DNA of 64,000 bases from Pseudoselenomonas ruminantium (GTDB taxonomy: Bacteria; Bacillota; Negativicutes; Selenomonadales; Selenomonadaceae): the NCBI RefSeq assembly GCF_900104055.1, contig NZ_FNJQ01000016.1, positions 1 to 64,000 on the forward strand, read 5' to 3'. The notes below the pieces were generated by a model, which was not told the origin of the DNA, ran no database searches, and saw only the letters and a list, made by a program, of their open reading frames with translations. Positions 48,413-54,391 of this stretch are shown piece after piece; position 1 is the first letter of the stretch, and the number at the start of each line of letters is the position of its first letter. Made by a program: the position numbers and the translations under genes.

Positions 48413-48562
48413 TGGGGGTATACGACATCTATCAACCAGGAGACTTTGGATGAAGCCCCCATAGCCTATAAATCCCTGTCGGATATATTAGATGTAATTG
48501 GCGATACGGTGGAGATTATCGATGTGATGAAGCCGGTGTATAACTTTAAGGCTGCGGAGTGA
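48413..48562 (+). pseudogene. 3' remnant of an rtcB-like RNA ligase gene
   Basis: Immediately after array A an open frame without a start codon reads TTSINQETLDEAPIAYKSL, then IGDTVEIIDVMKPVYNFKAAE and a stop at 48560-48562. This is the typical C-terminus of RtcB-type RNA ligases (DEAP.AYK, PVYNFKA). Only about 47 residues remain. The rest of the gene is missing; the cas2-3 gene and array lie where it should be. It marks a recombination junction beside the array. Confidence 0.75.
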
Positions 48563-48588: not shown

Positions 48589-48618
48589 TTGGACAGGAGA
48601 GATAGTCTTTGCTATAAT
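48589..48618 (+). promoter_or_regulatory. Promoter of the HipA-like gene
   Basis: TTGGAC (48589-48594), 18-bp spacer, TATAAT (48613-48618), 32 bp before the start codon. A TTGACA at 48577 is an alternative but is spaced too far (30 bp). Confidence 0.65.
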
Positions 48619-48650
48619 GCAAAGAAGATTGTATAGAAGGGCGGGATGTG

Positions 48651-49784
48651 ATGAATTTTCAACTGATGTGCAAGGATATTCCTGTGGCTGGTTTTACCAT
48701 AAATGAAGCAACAGGGCGAATTGTCAGCGATTTGGATATTGATAATCGTGAATACCTGCCTTTGTCCGTGTTGTTTAGTGACAGCTATCGCATTGCTTTG
48801 CAGAACTGGATAGACAATCGCAGCGTGTCAGCTCATCGAAAAGATGTGGCAGCTATGTTGGCGGCTTACCATGTGGAAACGCCGAGTGCTTTGTCCTTTA
48901 AGAGTTTGGGGCTGAATCTATCGGACCAATATTGGTTCAAGCCAGAGGGCGCTGATTTTTGCTGGCATGATGTAAACCTTTTTGAGAATGAGTTTGCGGA
49001 GCAGTCCTTTCGATCTGTTGCAGGTGGGGATAGTTCAAGTTATACTCCTGACAGCAGTTCCAATGGTGACTTGCCAAAGTTTTGGAAAATTGAACAGGGG
49101 AAACGTGTTCTCTATAAGGAAGGTTCGGCTCCTTTTGATCAGCAGCCATATAATGAAGTGTTTGCATCCAAGCTATTGGATGTGCTGAATCTGCCCCATG
49201 TTAGTTATTCCTTGGAACAGGATGATGCGGGCGAAAAAGCTTATAGTGTATGCGAAACCTTTGTTACATCGGAGACTGAGTATGTGCCTGCGTTGGAGAT
49301 TTTAGGCGTAGTTCCCAGATTGAACCATGAAAATAGCTATCAGCATTTTGGCCGTTGTATTGAAGAACTATCGATTCCGGTCTCCAGGCGTGAAATAGAT
49401 GAGATGCTGATGTTTGATTATCTCATTAACAATGCCGATCGGCACTATGGTAACTTTGGCTTTATCCGTGAGGTGAGTACTAGAAAGTTTTTGGGGTTGG
49501 CACCGATTTTTGACAATGGTAATAGTCTTTGGTACCTGCAACTCAATAAGCGGATGAAATTTAAAGACCAGCCAGCTAAACCTTTTCGAGATATCCAGAC
49601 GGAGCAGCTGAAGCTCTTAGGACAGACGAAACTTCTAGTGGAAAAATTGACCGAGGAGTTGCTGCAGCGGCTGATTGTTGATATATATAGCAAAAATGAT
49701 TTATTTGATGCAGAGCGCATGGACAATCTGCTATATAATGTTACAGTAGCATCGCGGAGAATTGCTGATAGGCAGCATGATTAG
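48651..49784 (+). CDS. HipA-like kinase-fold protein, orphan, inside the CRISPR locus
   Basis: This 377-residue protein resembles HipA-type Ser/Thr kinases in its C-terminal half. The catalytic loop is NNADRHYGNFGFI (Asp about 263, Asn 268) and a metal-binding motif is in APIFDNGNSLW (Asp about 288). Upstream lies a nucleotide-loop-like stretch (FWKIEQGKRVLYKEGSAPFDQQPYNE, positions 49081-49158) that fits the ATP-binding lobe. ATG 48651 follows GAAGGGCGGG; GTG 48648 is in frame as well. No HipB antitoxin is next to it. It has its own promoter and lies between array A and the mini-CRISPR, in the middle of a cas locus. Related orphan kinases exist in phage defence and in toxin modules; its role here is not known. 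Confidence 0.72.
   Translation: MNFQLMCKDIPVAGFTINEATGRIVSDLDIDNREYLPLSVLFSDSYRIALQNWIDNRSVSAHRKDVAAMLAAYHVETPSALSFKSLGLNLSDQYWFKPEGADFCWHDVNLFENEFAEQSFRSVAGGDSSSYTPDSSSNGDLPKFWKIEQGKRVLYKEGSAPFDQQPYNEVFASKLLDVLNLPHVSYSLEQDDAGEKAYSVCETFVTSETEYVPALEILGVVPRLNHENSYQHFGRCIEELSIPVSRREIDEMLMFDYLINNADRHYGNFGFIREVSTRKFLGLAPIFDNGNSLWYLQLNKRMKFKDQPAKPFRDIQTEQLKLLGQTKLLVEKLTEELLQRLIVDIYSKNDLFDAERMDNLLYNVTVASRRIADRQHD
49729..49739 (+). promoter_or_regulatory. Possible extended -10 promoter for the mini-CRISPR RNA
   Basis: TGCTATATAAT at 49729-49739 lies at the 3' end of the HipA-like gene, about 54 bp before the first degenerate repeat. There is no good -35. Read-through from the kinase promoter is the alternative source of the RNA. 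Confidence 0.35.
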
Positions 49785-49792
49785 AAAAGGCA

Positions 49793-49867
49793 ATCTTCCA
49801 TCGCATAGATGGCTTAGAAATTTATAATCTTTTTAGATGATGAACCGCCGTATAGGCGGCAAATGAA
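49793..49867 (+). CRISPR. Mini-CRISPR: two degenerate I-F repeats around a 19-nt pseudo-spacer (CreR-like)
   Basis: Repeat 1 (49793-49820) has its stem changed to CCATC/GATGG around GCATA, with both sides altered together so that five pairs remain, and keeps the exact 5' handle CTTAGAAA. Repeat 2 (49840-49867) keeps the stem CCGCC-GTATA-GGCGG exactly but has lost the handle. Only the parts needed for one crRNA (5' handle, 3' hairpin) are conserved. The spacer 49821-49839 is 19 nt, not 32. Its first 15 nt, TTTATAATCTTTTTA, recur at 49876-49890 behind CC, at the csy1 promoter. This is the layout described for Cas-regulating RNAs (CreR). Confidence 0.85.
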
Positions 49868-49873
49868 ATAAAA

Positions 49874-49894
49874 CCTTTATAATCTTTTTATAGT
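49874..49894 (+). promoter_or_regulatory. PAM (CC) and partial protospacer for the mini-crRNA in the csy promoter
   Basis: CC at 49874-49875 is the type I-F PAM on the correct side. It is followed at 49876 by 15 nt identical to the first 15 nt of the pseudo-spacer; identity then breaks down, which should allow binding without full Cas3 activation. The site ends at the -35 box (49894), so a bound Csy complex would block the promoter. Inside the mini-CRISPR the same spacer is preceded by AA, not CC. Confidence 0.8.
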
Positions 49895-49922
49895 TGATTT
49901 ATTGAGCCTGAAGTAATATAAT
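49894..49922 (+). promoter_or_regulatory. Promoter of the csy1-csy4 operon
   Basis: TTGATT (49894-49899), 17-bp spacer, TATAAT (49917-49922), 58 bp before the csy1 start codon. The -35 box directly adjoins the protospacer-like element. Confidence 0.75.
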
Positions 49923-49980
49923 ATAGAACAAGGATAAATGACAGATAATATTGAAGAATATGATAAGTGGGGTGATGTTG

Positions 49981-51135
49981 ATGAGTGTGTTGACAGATTA
50001 TGTGCAGGTAGAATCTGAAAAGAAAGGCGTGCCGCTTAGGCAGTGGCTAATGGATATGGCGAAGAATGCCAGCAAGTGTCAGTTTGCCACGCATATAGGC
50101 CGGTTTGTCAATCCGGATGTGACGGTCAATTGGCAGGCAAAGGTCCAAGATAAGCCGGATGAACCATATGTATCGACAGCTTCGGTGAAGTGTTTACCGG
50201 ATATTTTTGTAGCGGCTAATTATCTGGCAACGGCCAGCTTGCTGCAATTACGTTTAGAGGCTGGGAAGACGTTCTATGAGCACTTGCAGTCTGCTGATGA
50301 TGGCTTGCGGGAAGATTTCCAATACATGCAGGTTGACTATGATCAACTGCGTGAAGATTTGCTGGCTATAAAGTCGGATGTAGTGCCGGATGCAACAGAT
50401 AAGCGGTTGCGGCAGGTATATTTTCCTGTGGGGGATGATGGATACCATTTGTTGACCGTTTTGCCGCCTGCGAGTCTGATGCAGGAAGTGCGCTTACGTA
50501 TCCGGGCAATGGAAGAGACGGCGCGGCTGGCCTGTACTAAGAAATCGGAGAGCTATGGCAGTGATCATAGGCGAATCTATGATCTGGTACAGACCAAATT
50601 CGGCGGCACCAAGCCGCAGAACATATCCTATGGGAATAATCGGCAGGGCGGACGCAGTTATATGCTTCCGGCATTGCCGCCGGTTTTGGAAAAGCGTAAT
50701 TTGATTTATCCGAGGCGGGATTTTTTCAGGGAAACGTTGCGGCGGAAGGATTTTATTGGTCTGTTCCATCGTCTGCATAAGCGTTATGTTGATACGCGAA
50801 ATAATCTGGAAATCCGGCGGGCTGTTCGCAGTATAGAGCAGCAGATAATGGAAATGGTATTGCAACGAGTATATGTGCTGCGAGAGAAGCATGGCTGGAC
50901 AGAAAATCGCAGTTTGAGCAGAGCACAGATGATTTGGCTGGACGATAAGTATATCGATGAACGATACAATGATGAGGAGTGGCAAAAACAGCTGGCGATT
51001 GAGTTTGCCGATTGGATGATGAGCGCCTATGAAAAAATCCTAAAGAGGGAAAAAGTCGAGTTGGGCGATGGAGAACTGACGGCATTGCGAAAAGAAGCCA
51101 TCAATTTCATTCGCAGTGATTTGCAGAAGCAGTAG
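49981..51135 (+). CDS. csy1: Cas8f / Csy1, large subunit of the I-F surveillance complex
   Basis: This 384-residue Cas8f caps the 5' handle of the crRNA and reads the PAM. The diagnostic segment FGGTKPQNISYGNNRQGG followed by SYMLPALPP is present (residues about 205-235), as is a helical C-terminus. It is somewhat shorter than the roughly 430 residues of Pseudomonas Csy1. ATG 49981 has GGGGTG 8 bases upstream; in-frame starts further upstream lack this spacing. It is first gene of the csy operon, 11 bp before csy2. Confidence 0.92.
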   Translation: MSVLTDYVQVESEKKGVPLRQWLMDMAKNASKCQFATHIGRFVNPDVTVNWQAKVQDKPDEPYVSTASVKCLPDIFVAANYLATASLLQLRLEAGKTFYEHLQSADDGLREDFQYMQVDYDQLREDLLAIKSDVVPDATDKRLRQVYFPVGDDGYHLLTVLPPASLMQEVRLRIRAMEETARLACTKKSESYGSDHRRIYDLVQTKFGGTKPQNISYGNNRQGGRSYMLPALPPVLEKRNLIYPRRDFFRETLRRKDFIGLFHRLHKRYVDTRNNLEIRRAVRSIEQQIMEMVLQRVYVLREKHGWTENRSLSRAQMIWLDDKYIDERYNDEEWQKQLAIEFADWMMSAYEKILKREKVELGDGELTALRKEAINFIRSDLQKQ

Positions 51136-51146
51136 GGGGTAGGTTG

Positions 51147-52079
51147 ATGATCACAAAATATCTGATGATTCCCCACTTACAGATACAGAATGCCAATGCA
51201 GCCAGCAGTCCTTATACGGTAGGTTTTCCGGCAATGACTGCCTGGCTGGGGATGGTTCATGCTCTGCAACGGCGGATTCAGTGCAGGGAGGAATTGAAAA
51301 AAATCTCTATGACGCGGGCGGCAGTAATATGTCATACCTGTGATTTACAGGTGTTCCATGATGAGGGGAATTTTTACAGTTCGCTGATTGGCACGGCGAA
51401 TCCGCTGAAGAAGAGCAGGAAAACCGGCGAATTTGAGCGGCCGCCTTTTGTTGAAGAAGCACGCTGCCATTTGGAGGTCAGCCTGTTGGTGGAATTGGAA
51501 GAAGTGTCAGGCAGTATCGAGCAGATTTTTGAGGAAACTGTTCGGCAAGAGTTGCCACGCTTAAAGGCGGCAGGGGGAGACATTGTCCTGCGGCACGGCG
51601 AGCAACAGGATTGGCGGGTAATAGCTGTTGATAATGATGAAGAAAAGGACGTGCGCAGGTTGAAAGCGCGTCTTATGCCTGGTTATGCAATCATTGAACG
51701 ACAGGACTTGCTTCGGCATGAAGAGGGCAAGGATGCTTTGGACTGTTTATTGAACGCTATGCAGGTACAGTATACGGCCAATCGCGATGCTGATGGCAAT
51801 TTTACTGGTTGGCAGAGAACAAAGGTATCTGCAAATGGCTGGTTGGTGCCATTGGCAGTTGGTTTCCGGGACTTATCCGGCAGCTTGCAGGTGAAGGAAC
51901 AGCGTTCCTATGAGTATGAGCATCATTTTGTGGAGCCCTTGGTAACTGTGGGCGAATTTGTTATGCCTTATCGTCTGGCGTCGATTCAGGAAATGATGTG
52001 GGAATATGATTATGATGAAGCAGATGGCTTATACTTGTGCCGGAATATGGGTGAAAAAGATTTGCGTGGGGAGGAATAA
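51147..52079 (+). CDS. csy2: Cas5f / Csy2
   Basis: This 310-residue RAMP-type protein pairs with Csy1 at the 5' end of the crRNA. The family mark IQNANAASSPYTVGFPAMTAW and the following GMVHALQRR are clear. Later segments are YRLASIQEMMWEYD and WLVPLAVGFRDLS. ATG 51147 is preceded by AGGGGGTAGG. It is 2 bp before csy3. Intact. Confidence 0.92.
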   Translation: MITKYLMIPHLQIQNANAASSPYTVGFPAMTAWLGMVHALQRRIQCREELKKISMTRAAVICHTCDLQVFHDEGNFYSSLIGTANPLKKSRKTGEFERPPFVEEARCHLEVSLLVELEEVSGSIEQIFEETVRQELPRLKAAGGDIVLRHGEQQDWRVIAVDNDEEKDVRRLKARLMPGYAIIERQDLLRHEEGKDALDCLLNAMQVQYTANRDADGNFTGWQRTKVSANGWLVPLAVGFRDLSGSLQVKEQRSYEYEHHFVEPLVTVGEFVMPYRLASIQEMMWEYDYDEADGLYLCRNMGEKDLRGEE

Positions 52080-52081
52080 TC

Positions 52082-53092
52082 ATGGCTAAGAAAGCTGCAG
52101 ATATTGCATCAGTGTTAGCATTTGAAAAGAAATTGGTCGTTTCAGATGGTTATATGTATGGTACTTGCTGGGACGATGAGCATAAGTCAAAGGCTGAACC
52201 TTTGAAGTTGGTGGAAAAATCAGTTCGGGGAACGATATCCAACCGGTTGAAACCAGCTGTGCAGAATGATCCGGCAAAATTGAATGCAGAAGTAGAAAAA
52301 CCAAACTTACAGCAGGTCGATGCCTGCGCATTGGGAATGGAAGAGGATACCTTGAAACTATCCTTTACCATCAAGGTGTTAAGTGGCGTAGAGAAGCCGT
52401 CAGCTTGCAACAATGCGGCTTTTGCCCAGAGCTATGCTGAGGCGGCTAAAGGTTATGTGGAAAAGACTGGTTTTAGAGAACTGGCTTATCGGTATGCCTA
52501 TAATATTGCCAATGCCCGTTTCCTTTGGCGGAATCGTCTAGGGGCGGAGAAAATTGATGTTTGTGTCAAGGTTGGTGATTGGGAGCAGAAATTTGATGCA
52601 TATACTTATTCGTTGCGTGATTTTGCCGAGCATGAGGAAATCAAGGCTTTAGCAGGAAAGATTGCGGCAGCCCTGTCTGGCGAGGAAGCGTATCAATTTA
52701 TTGAAGTAGAAGCTTATGCAAAGCTGGGAATGGGGCAGGAAGTGTACCCCAGTGAAGAATTGGTGTTTGATAAGGGCAACAGCCGCAAGAGCAAGATTTT
52801 GTATCATGTGGATGGTGTAGCGGCAATGCATTCCCAGAAATTGGGCAACGCTTTGCGGACGATTGATACATGGTATCCAGAGTTTGCAAGTGAAGAAGGA
52901 ACTGGACCGATTGCCATCGAGCCGTATGGTGCAGTGACAAACTTGGGAAAAGCATTTCGGAATCCTAAAGATAAGGTAGATTTTTACACATTGTTTGATA
53001 AGTTTGCCTTGGGCGAACCGCTGGCCAGTGTGGAAGAAGAGCATTATGTTATGGCAGTTCTGGTGCGTGGCGGTGTATTTGGCAAGGGGTGA
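52082..53092 (+). CDS. csy3: Cas7f / Csy3, backbone subunit
   Basis: This 336-residue protein forms the six-fold backbone along the spacer. The Csy3 signatures are FEKKLVVSDGYMYGTCW near the N-terminus, FLWRNRLGAEKIDVCVKVG in the middle and the C-terminal KSKILYHVDGVAAMHSQKLG. GGGGAGGAAT precedes the ATG. The stop overlaps the first possible csy4 start. Intact and of normal length. Confidence 0.93.
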   Translation: MAKKAADIASVLAFEKKLVVSDGYMYGTCWDDEHKSKAEPLKLVEKSVRGTISNRLKPAVQNDPAKLNAEVEKPNLQQVDACALGMEEDTLKLSFTIKVLSGVEKPSACNNAAFAQSYAEAAKGYVEKTGFRELAYRYAYNIANARFLWRNRLGAEKIDVCVKVGDWEQKFDAYTYSLRDFAEHEEIKALAGKIAAALSGEEAYQFIEVEAYAKLGMGQEVYPSEELVFDKGNSRKSKILYHVDGVAAMHSQKLGNALRTIDTWYPEFASEEGTGPIAIEPYGAVTNLGKAFRNPKDKVDFYTLFDKFALGEPLASVEEEHYVMAVLVRGGVFGKG

Positions 53093-53097
53093 GCAGC

Positions 53098-53676
53098 GTG
53101 AAGTTTTATCAGGAACTCACCTTGTTGCCGGATGCGGAGATTAGCGAGAACCATATCTGGAGCAAACTGTATCAGCAGCTTCACTTGGCTTTGGCAACGC
53201 AGATGGAAGACGGCAGTAAGGGGAATATTGGTGTCTCGTTTCCGCAATATGAAGATGGCAGAAAGGTTCGGCTGGGCAGTAAACTGCGGATATTTGCGGA
53301 ATCAGAAGATGAATTGAAAGCGTTAGCGATAAGGAAATGGCTGCAACGGTATGAAGATTACATTCATATGACCAGCATCCGTCCTGTGCCGAAGCGGGTG
53401 AATGGCTATGCAGTTTATCGTCGTTATCATCCGGAAGCAAGTTCTATGCAGAAGGCCAGACGCTACGCCAAGCGGCATAATGTATCTTATGATGAAGCCT
53501 TGAAATTATTTCCGCAAGAATGCAGGGATAAGAAAGTTCCCTTTGTGCAGATGCATAGTGAAACGAATCAGCAAAAATATCGCCTTTGTATAGAACGCAT
53601 TGTACAGGATTCGGATCAGGACGTTGGTTTTGGCAGTTATGGTCTGGATAACCAGTCAACTGTGCCGGAATTTTGA
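53098..53676 (+). CDS. csy4: Cas6f / Csy4, crRNA-processing endoribonuclease
   Basis: This protein of about 192 residues cuts the pre-crRNA 3' of the repeat hairpin and stays bound to it. The catalytic His is in YQQLHLALATQ, aligned with His29 of Pseudomonas Csy4, and NIGVSFPQYED follows. The C-terminal part has Arg/Lys-rich helices (KARRYAKRHNVSYDEALKLF) for hairpin contact, then the conserved PFVQMHSETNQQKYRLCIE segment. GTG 53098 is chosen because AAGGGG lies about 8 bases upstream; GTG 53089 is the alternative. It would have to recognise the GAATA-loop, GTATA-loop and mini-CRISPR GCATA-loop hairpins alike. Confidence 0.92.
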   Translation: MKFYQELTLLPDAEISENHIWSKLYQQLHLALATQMEDGSKGNIGVSFPQYEDGRKVRLGSKLRIFAESEDELKALAIRKWLQRYEDYIHMTSIRPVPKRVNGYAVYRRYHPEASSMQKARRYAKRHNVSYDEALKLFPQECRDKKVPFVQMHSETNQQKYRLCIERIVQDSDQDVGFGSYGLDNQSTVPEF

Positions 53677-54118: not shown

Positions 54119-54391
54119 ATGATTAAGAAAAGCAAACACCAAGGAAGTATCGAAATGGAGAAGTTTTGCCGGGATATCTGGCGTACCATTGAAGATACGA
54201 TTTTTGAACAACATGGCTGTCTGCTGCCGGCTGGCGATATAACAGTAGATGTGATTCTGCACTGGAACAAGGAGGAAGTGTTGGGATCGTTGAAACGCCG
54301 GGGCAAGATTGCCAGTTGGGTACAGGACAGAGAATTTGAAGATGGCAACATGCGCAGATACAAAATTATCGTAGATAGCGAGAAGATATGA
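54119..54391 (+). CDS. Small hypothetical protein next to CRISPR array B
   Basis: This 90-residue product has no family that I recognise. It reads as a helix (MEKFCRDIWRTIEDTIFEQHG) followed by a strand-rich part (DITVDVILHWNKEEVL) and a basic segment (GSLKRRGKIASWVQDREF). There is no signal or membrane segment. The ribosome site is weak (AGGGTAAA, spaced about 10). It lies 46 bp after the last degenerate repeat and ends at a bidirectional terminator. It could belong to the CRISPR locus or be an unrelated insertion. Confidence 0.5.
   Translation: MIKKSKHQGSIEMEKFCRDIWRTIEDTIFEQHGCLLPAGDITVDVILHWNKEEVLGSLKRRGKIASWVQDREFEDGNMRRYKIIVDSEKI

Follow-up and report, generated by a model that had tools for sequence, protein, structure and literature searches.

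What is a solitary pair of degenerate CRISPR (clustered regularly interspaced short palindromic repeats) repeats doing directly upstream of csy1-4, the effector operon of a type I-F CRISPR-Cas system? The question is raised by a locus of Pseudoselenomonas ruminantium (contig NZ_FNJQ01000016.1 of assembly GCF_900104055.1), of which the first 64,000 nucleotides of the forward strand were analysed (hereafter, the window). A mini-CRISPR consisting of two degenerate I-F repeats and a 19-nt spacer lies between a HipA-like gene and csy1, and the first 15 nt of its spacer recur at the predicted csy1 promoter. An earlier, sequence-only reading of this stretch proposed that the RNA of the mini-CRISPR lets the Csy complex repress its own operon. 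Our analysis indicates that the element is very probably a type I-F form of CreR (Cas-regulating RNA), in which a Csy complex with a shortened CRISPR RNA (crRNA) blocks the promoter of csy1-4. The assignment as CreR is suggested by the anatomy of the element, and repression of the csy operon would be the natural reading of the target placement.

The mini-CRISPR and its target in the window

Every coordinate of the sequence-only reading held when the window sequence was rechecked. The unit lies on the forward strand between the HipA-like gene, the stop codon of which ends at 49784, and the start of csy1 at 49981. Repeat 1 (creR psi-R1; 49793–49820) has the stem CCATC/GATGG, compared with CCGCC/GGCGG in the array repeat, and ends in an intact 8-nt 5' handle, CTTAGAAA. 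It is followed by the 19-nt guide (spacer; 49821–49839) and by repeat 2 (psi-R2; 49840–49867), in which a Csy4-type hairpin is intact and the 3' handle is ruined, so that, as originally described, the hairpin alone is retained. The identical repeats and 32-nt spacers of an ordinary array are not found here, i.e. the spacer has 19 nt and both repeats deviate from the array repeat. The predicted fold of the mini-CRISPR RNA shows both hairpins (z-score, -2.2), and 5 of 200 shuffled sequences fold equally well. A search of Rfam recovered the four repeats of array 1, but neither the mini-CRISPR nor the repeats of array 2; since the latter were also missed, the silence of Rfam on the mini-CRISPR means little.

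The first 15 letters of the spacer recur exactly at 49876–49890 on the forward strand. As had been reported, this second copy is directly preceded by CC (49874–49875), the type I-F protospacer-adjacent motif (PAM), and ends against the -35 box of the predicted csy operon promoter (49894–49922; TTGATT at 49894, a 17-nt gap, and TATAAT at 49917); the match stops 3 nt before this box, in what may be the position of an UP element. The anatomy, the PAM, the match, and the placement at the predicted promoter were all read directly from the DNA. No other CC-flanked match to the 15-mer with up to three mismatches was found on either strand of the window, the next-best site (57430, minus strand) having four, and no such target accompanies cas1 and cas2-3 in the window, the effector operon being the sole set of genes preceded by one. 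CC plus the 15 letters occurs exactly at no place in the 3.2-Mb genome other than the target, and the other sites listed, with up to two mismatches allowed, each have two. Dinucleotide shuffles of 49840–49980 contained CC plus the 15-mer in none of 20,000 cases and, with up to three mismatches, in 6 of 20,000. Between the promoter and csy1, a ACAGATAATATTGAA-like stretch (49939–49970) was seen by eye to be common to several Selenomonas csy1 leaders.

Guide–target co-evolution and mismatch footprint in Negativicutes

Csy1 was found by a family search in 36 of 380 Negativicutes genomes. In each of the 36, the DNA upstream of csy1 was scanned by script and, in most cases, also inspected by eye. 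The element is present in 14 of these, i.e. the window (G000) and G001, G009, G010, G011, G015, G016, G062, G147, G165, G188, G334, G342, and G344, the last of which, with its target on the opposite strand, was picked up when 11 of the other loci were searched more widely. Because the first detector ignored guide positions 6 and 12 and could bias the mismatch count, it was rerun unweighted with up to three mismatches in 15; the identical 14 loci, including G344, were recovered, and 22 further hits were discarded, which by our reading were array-internal or begun from chance hairpins. In four flagged loci that were rechecked, repeat 2 is the sole true repeat at up to 200 nt from repeat 1, i.e. 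the element is a solitary two-repeat unit. The 19-nt spacer had been called unusual; it proved typical instead, the length being 19–21 nt in 11 of the 14 loci (18, 24, and 27 nt in the other three); the I-F CreA that was mapped in Acinetobacter has a 20-nt spacer (PMC10097628).

The guides vary by lineage, and each fits its own target. Across the 14 loci, a mean of 14.57 of the 15 read positions match in cognate pairs versus 7.36 in non-cognate pairs, and the observed match sum was reached in none of 20,000 permutations; the loci were picked for matching, and the agreement within loci is thus partly the product of selection, but the divergence between loci is not. In G009 and G011, the Csy1 proteins of which are 92% identical, the spacers differ at four read positions, and at each of these the target has changed too. 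Covariation of spacer and target in homologous loci, which the sequence-only reading had proposed as a check, was therefore found when the check was run, and it is strong in the 14 Negativicutes loci.

Positions 1–15 of the 14 guide–target pairs contain 15 mismatches in total, of which eight are at position 12, six at position 6, and one at position 11. The binomial probability of 14 of 15 falling on positions 6 or 12 is 7e-12, a value that overstates the certainty since the loci are kin: G016, G015, and G001 share one guide, and G062 and G334 nearly do. When one row per guide family was counted (G015 and G334 kept), 12 of 13 mismatches were at these two positions by our count. In G016, G015, and G001, the first 20 letters of the guides are identical and the targets differ over positions 1–18 solely at 6, 12, and 18. 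Position 18 is weaker evidence; it is mismatched in 12 of the 14 loci, but in four of these the match is already over at position 15, and among the loci with positions 16 and 17 matched it is mismatched in 8 of 10. Type I-F Cascade has been described as pairing in a 5+1 pattern in which every sixth position is tolerated (PMC7305327). Since the mismatches sit at the nucleotides that this complex leaves unread, the DNA bears the mark that recognition by a Csy complex would leave.

Direct repeats next to promoters are a common form of operator in general, and the two 15-nt copies could on that ground be taken as binding sites of a protein regulator. We regard this as very improbable, as the repeated word varies by lineage, one copy is fitted exactly between a handle and a hairpin and the other stands behind CC, and the copy in G344 is on the opposite strand. 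A handle before one copy and CC before the other were requirements of the detector; the pattern at positions 6 and 12 was not. Neither protein operators nor gene conversion explains this mismatch pattern. Just as improbable is a decayed array unit, or an accidental self-targeting spacer, retained by chance. The repeats are indeed degenerate and ordinary arrays flank the csy genes, but varied guides with fitting targets occur in 14 genomes, their placement at promoters recurs, and nearly all mismatches fall at unread positions; this 14-locus pattern is a strong argument against retention by chance.

Hairpins, promoter placement, and probable control of csy1

Compensatory changes in the stem of repeat 1, which the sequence-only reading had noted together with the intact handle, are also seen in the comparison of the 14 loci. 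The hairpin of repeat 1 has been kept through double changes at four of the five stem pairs, and that of repeat 2 shows double changes at two of the five. Stem pairing in all 70 cells and the intact-looking handles are partly the result of selection, because the detector required both; this does not apply to the double changes. Repeat 1 has the same 8-nt handle as in the window in 10 of the 14 loci and a handle one letter off in four, and the corresponding stretch of repeat 2 is degenerate. The same asymmetry is described for proven haloarchaeal CreA repeats, in which psi-R1 retains and psi-R2 loses the Cas5-binding nucleotides (PMC9458426). Hairpin covariation, co-evolution, and mismatch periodicity, like the anatomy, are properties of the sequences themselves.

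The target starts 18–22 nt before the predicted -35 box in 10 of the 14 loci. It overlaps the -35 box in G062 and G334 and the -10 box in G147, and in G344, for which the promoter call is uncertain, it lies close to the start site on the opposite strand. The distance from the -10 box to csy1 is 22–67 nt in 13 of the 14 loci (csy1 starts being approximate and promoters predicted), and no toxin gene was found under the target promoter by this spacing. Could the guide serve mainly to block transcription reading through from hipA or cas2-3, rather than to control the csy promoter? Repeat 1 begins 8 nt from the hipA stop, no terminator was predicted in 49672–50100, and a bound complex would be a roadblock. 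Placement of the target, however, tracks the -35 box in most loci irrespective of the upstream gene, and we consider this function quite unlikely.

The spacing also bears on an addiction module of the CreTA or CrePA kind, in which the guide would repress either the adjacent HipA-like kinase or a toxin whose gene begins at the promoter that the guide targets. In Acinetobacter, a proven I-F CreTA is located in the same cas3–csy1 gap; its 20-nt spacer partly matches a CC-flanked site (PMC10097628). The element studied here likewise has a mini-CRISPR in this gap, a guide of about 20 nt, and a CC-flanked partial match, and the sequence of the window shows an AAGGA that resembles a ribosome site and a frame of 26 codons starting at 49938. 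The 22–67 nt available in 13 loci, however, leave scant room for a separate toxin transcript, the start codon of the 26-codon frame is absent in G009, G010, and G011, and the guide is co-directional with csy1, whereas creA is divergent in Acinetobacter. A CreTA with a divergent toxin mini-open reading frame (ORF) was rejected on these grounds. Repression of hipA was rejected as well: this gene adjoins the mini-CRISPR, but its promoter has no guide match at up to three mismatches, the csy1 promoter being the sole CC-flanked site of that quality in the window, and it is present in 4 of the 14 loci. We therefore judge an addiction module of either kind to be unlikely.

In the CreR reading, Csy4 would cut the mini-CRISPR transcript at both hairpins to give a crRNA-like RNA with an 8-nt handle, a 19-nt guide, and a 3' hairpin, expected to run from about 49813 (5' CUUAGAAA) to about 49859. 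This RNA would load onto Csy1-4, and the resulting shortened Csy complex would recognize CC and the target at 49876–49890, cover the DNA up to the -35 box, and hinder RNA polymerase; with a partial match, no cleavage by Cas2/3 would follow. An abundance of crRNAs or the arrival of an inhibitor would raise csy expression, because ordinary crRNAs would compete for the same proteins and anti-CRISPRs would disable the complex. We infer the transcription of the unit, the processing and loading of its RNA, repression, competition, and the effect of anti-CRISPRs, the RNA, its processing, and repression having had the same standing in the sequence-only reading. Its central proposal, self-repression by the Csy complex, is the best supported mechanism, having gained covariation, mismatches at unread positions, target placement, and hairpin pairing in its favour.

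Several observations weigh against this reading. The mini-CRISPR of the window has, at best, a weak promoter-like site (9/12, 45 nt upstream), and repeat 1 begins only 8 nt past the hipA stop codon, so that the unit may depend on read-through. In G188, 229 nt separate the promoter from csy1, with an inverted-repeat insert seen by eye. In addition, 22 of the 36 csy1 loci are without the element, and among them are the genomes with the most similar Csy1, G002 (82%) and G006 (81%), in which CRISPR repeats are found instead; the element is thus dispensable, and its absence in these two genomes is probably a natural loss. By our reading, the 22 loci comprise 16 in which csy1 is closely preceded by another ORF (in most cases as long as cas2-3, by size and not by homology), three with CRISPR repeats abutting csy1 (G002, G006, and G332), one with an unrelated gap (G167), and two with distant Csy1 forms. 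The Csy1 relatives in G004 and G012 are too distant for judging. When loci are grouped in this manner, 14 of the 15 with a non-array gap before a normal csy1 contain the element. The CRISPR repeats of G002 (locus L053) and G006 (L120) are in the place of the mini-CRISPR just upstream of csy1, and those of G006 lie behind a transposase-like sequence (by eye).

The gene order in the window is cas1, cas2-3, array 1 (four repeats), the HipA-like gene, the mini-CRISPR, csy1-4, and array 2. All four csy genes are on the forward strand: csy1 (cas8f; 49981–51135), with which the presumably repressed operon begins, csy2 (cas5f; 51144–52079), csy3 (cas7f; 52082–53092), and csy4 (cas6f; 53089–53676), which encodes the presumed processing enzyme. 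The HipA_C-domain kinase-like gene (48648–49784), between array 1 and the mini-CRISPR, matches the PADLOC candidate models PDC-M03A. The sequence-only reading had treated it as a notable part of the setting. Genes 76–81% identical to it hold the same place in G009, G010, and G011; as it is present in merely 4 of the 14 element loci, hipA is a passenger and no part of the element. The predicted -10 box of hipA lies within a perfect palindrome, CTTTGC-TATAAT-GCAAAG (48607–48624), which is a possible operator. A 40-codon open scrap between array 1 and hipA (48440–48562) shows a sub-threshold Pfam similarity (E 0.02) to the C terminus of RtcB, and a 90-aa ORF directly behind array 2 (54119–54391) has no Pfam match at E 0.1.

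Proposed type I-F regulatory guides in a wider context

CreR has been described (Liu et al. 2023, Cell Host Microbe) as a crRNA-like RNA from a mini-CRISPR with a guide that partly matches the promoter of its own cas operon (PMC13131331, PMC12737573, PMC12948488), in subtypes I-B, I-E, and V-A in one account (PMC13131331) and in type I and V-A broadly in another (PMC12737573). The element studied here shares the partial match of a mini-CRISPR guide to its own cas operon promoter and the lack of a dedicated toxin, and differs from the I-B, I-E, and V-A forms in its I-F subtype, its 19-nt guide, its position between cas2-3 and csy1, and a target that, in the window, precedes the effector operon alone. 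An I-F CreR was not found among the papers listed by our literature searches, and a case may be described in the primary CreR or CrePA papers or their supplements. With that limit, the observation itself is real, and its novelty lies in an I-F form of CreR.

Auto-repression by an effector has a parallel in Cas9 (Workman et al.), for which the guide is reportedly a long form of the trans-activating crRNA. There the effector represses its own expression and anti-CRISPRs release it (PMC13131331); the Csy complex would likewise repress itself and be released by anti-CRISPRs, but with a different effector class and guide. A sister element is the I-F CreTA, described from this gap in three strains of Acinetobacter, in the CreA of which natural mismatches occur at positions 6, 11, and 18 and loss of pairing is tolerated at 10, 12, 19, and 20 (PMC10097628). 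The CreTA of strain WCHA45 shares with our element the gap, two degenerate hairpin repeats, a guide of about 20 nt, the CC PAM, and mismatch tolerance; its guide, however, diverges from a repressed toxin RNA with a mini-ORF, whereas here guide and csy1 are co-directional and the promoter reads directly into csy1 (PMC10097628).

The search was extended to 369 sampled Gammaproteobacteria, of which 32 have Csy1, and 30 loci were scanned. The unweighted scan gave 14 hits, three of which (one of the two in L107 and those in L134 and L143) were dropped as begun from chance hairpins; the 11 loci kept and L137 (four mismatches, from the weighted scan) make 12. In all 12, a second hairpin lies past the guide and the guide is divergent from csy1, and the PAM lies 0–2 nt before the predicted -35 box in seven. 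By our count, 19 of 28 mismatches are at positions 6 or 12, or 17 of 24 without L137. L104, L107, L137, and L147, with the -10 box 32–77 nt before csy1, look like CreR. L124, L136, L128, L130, and L131, with hairpin-rich leaders before csy1, look like CreTA; L124 and L136 also have short distances from the -10 box to csy1 (-11 and 58 nt) when the most upstream in-frame start codon is used, the true start being later by eye. In L125 and L133 (reverse strand), the target is upstream of a small ORF before csy1, encoding a DUF2188 protein (E 2e-14) and a 63-aa protein, respectively; these are possible protein-output modules. A pattern scan of viral contigs (one) gave no matches, and in the Planctomycete locus L044 a repeat-like pair was seen by eye, with no target found.

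A broader proposal, which we put forward tentatively and hold to be possible rather than probable, is that type I-F systems have an ancient regulatory slot in the cas3–csy1 gap, in which one guide family spanning two phyla, often aimed at the -35 region before csy1, has survived and had its output swapped. In CreR, the output would be nothing but the csy operon; in CreTA, a toxin RNA inserted there; and in some Gammaproteobacteria, an inserted small protein (such as DUF2188 or 63 aa). If so, CreR and CreTA would be two states of one switch, and their occurrence in the same gap makes the relation between autorepression and addiction directly testable. Beyond the sequence-only reading, the present analysis has tested co-evolution, found the footprint at the sixth positions, shown how widely the element occurs, and taken hipA out of it.

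Type I-F systems have many anti-CRISPRs and well-studied structures. RNA-guided autorepression would, if the CreR reading is true, extend to this subtype. Natural mutations here reveal the 5+1 rule of Cascade, which provides an alignment-based detector for such guides, and the locus offers a testable feedback loop in rumen commensals.
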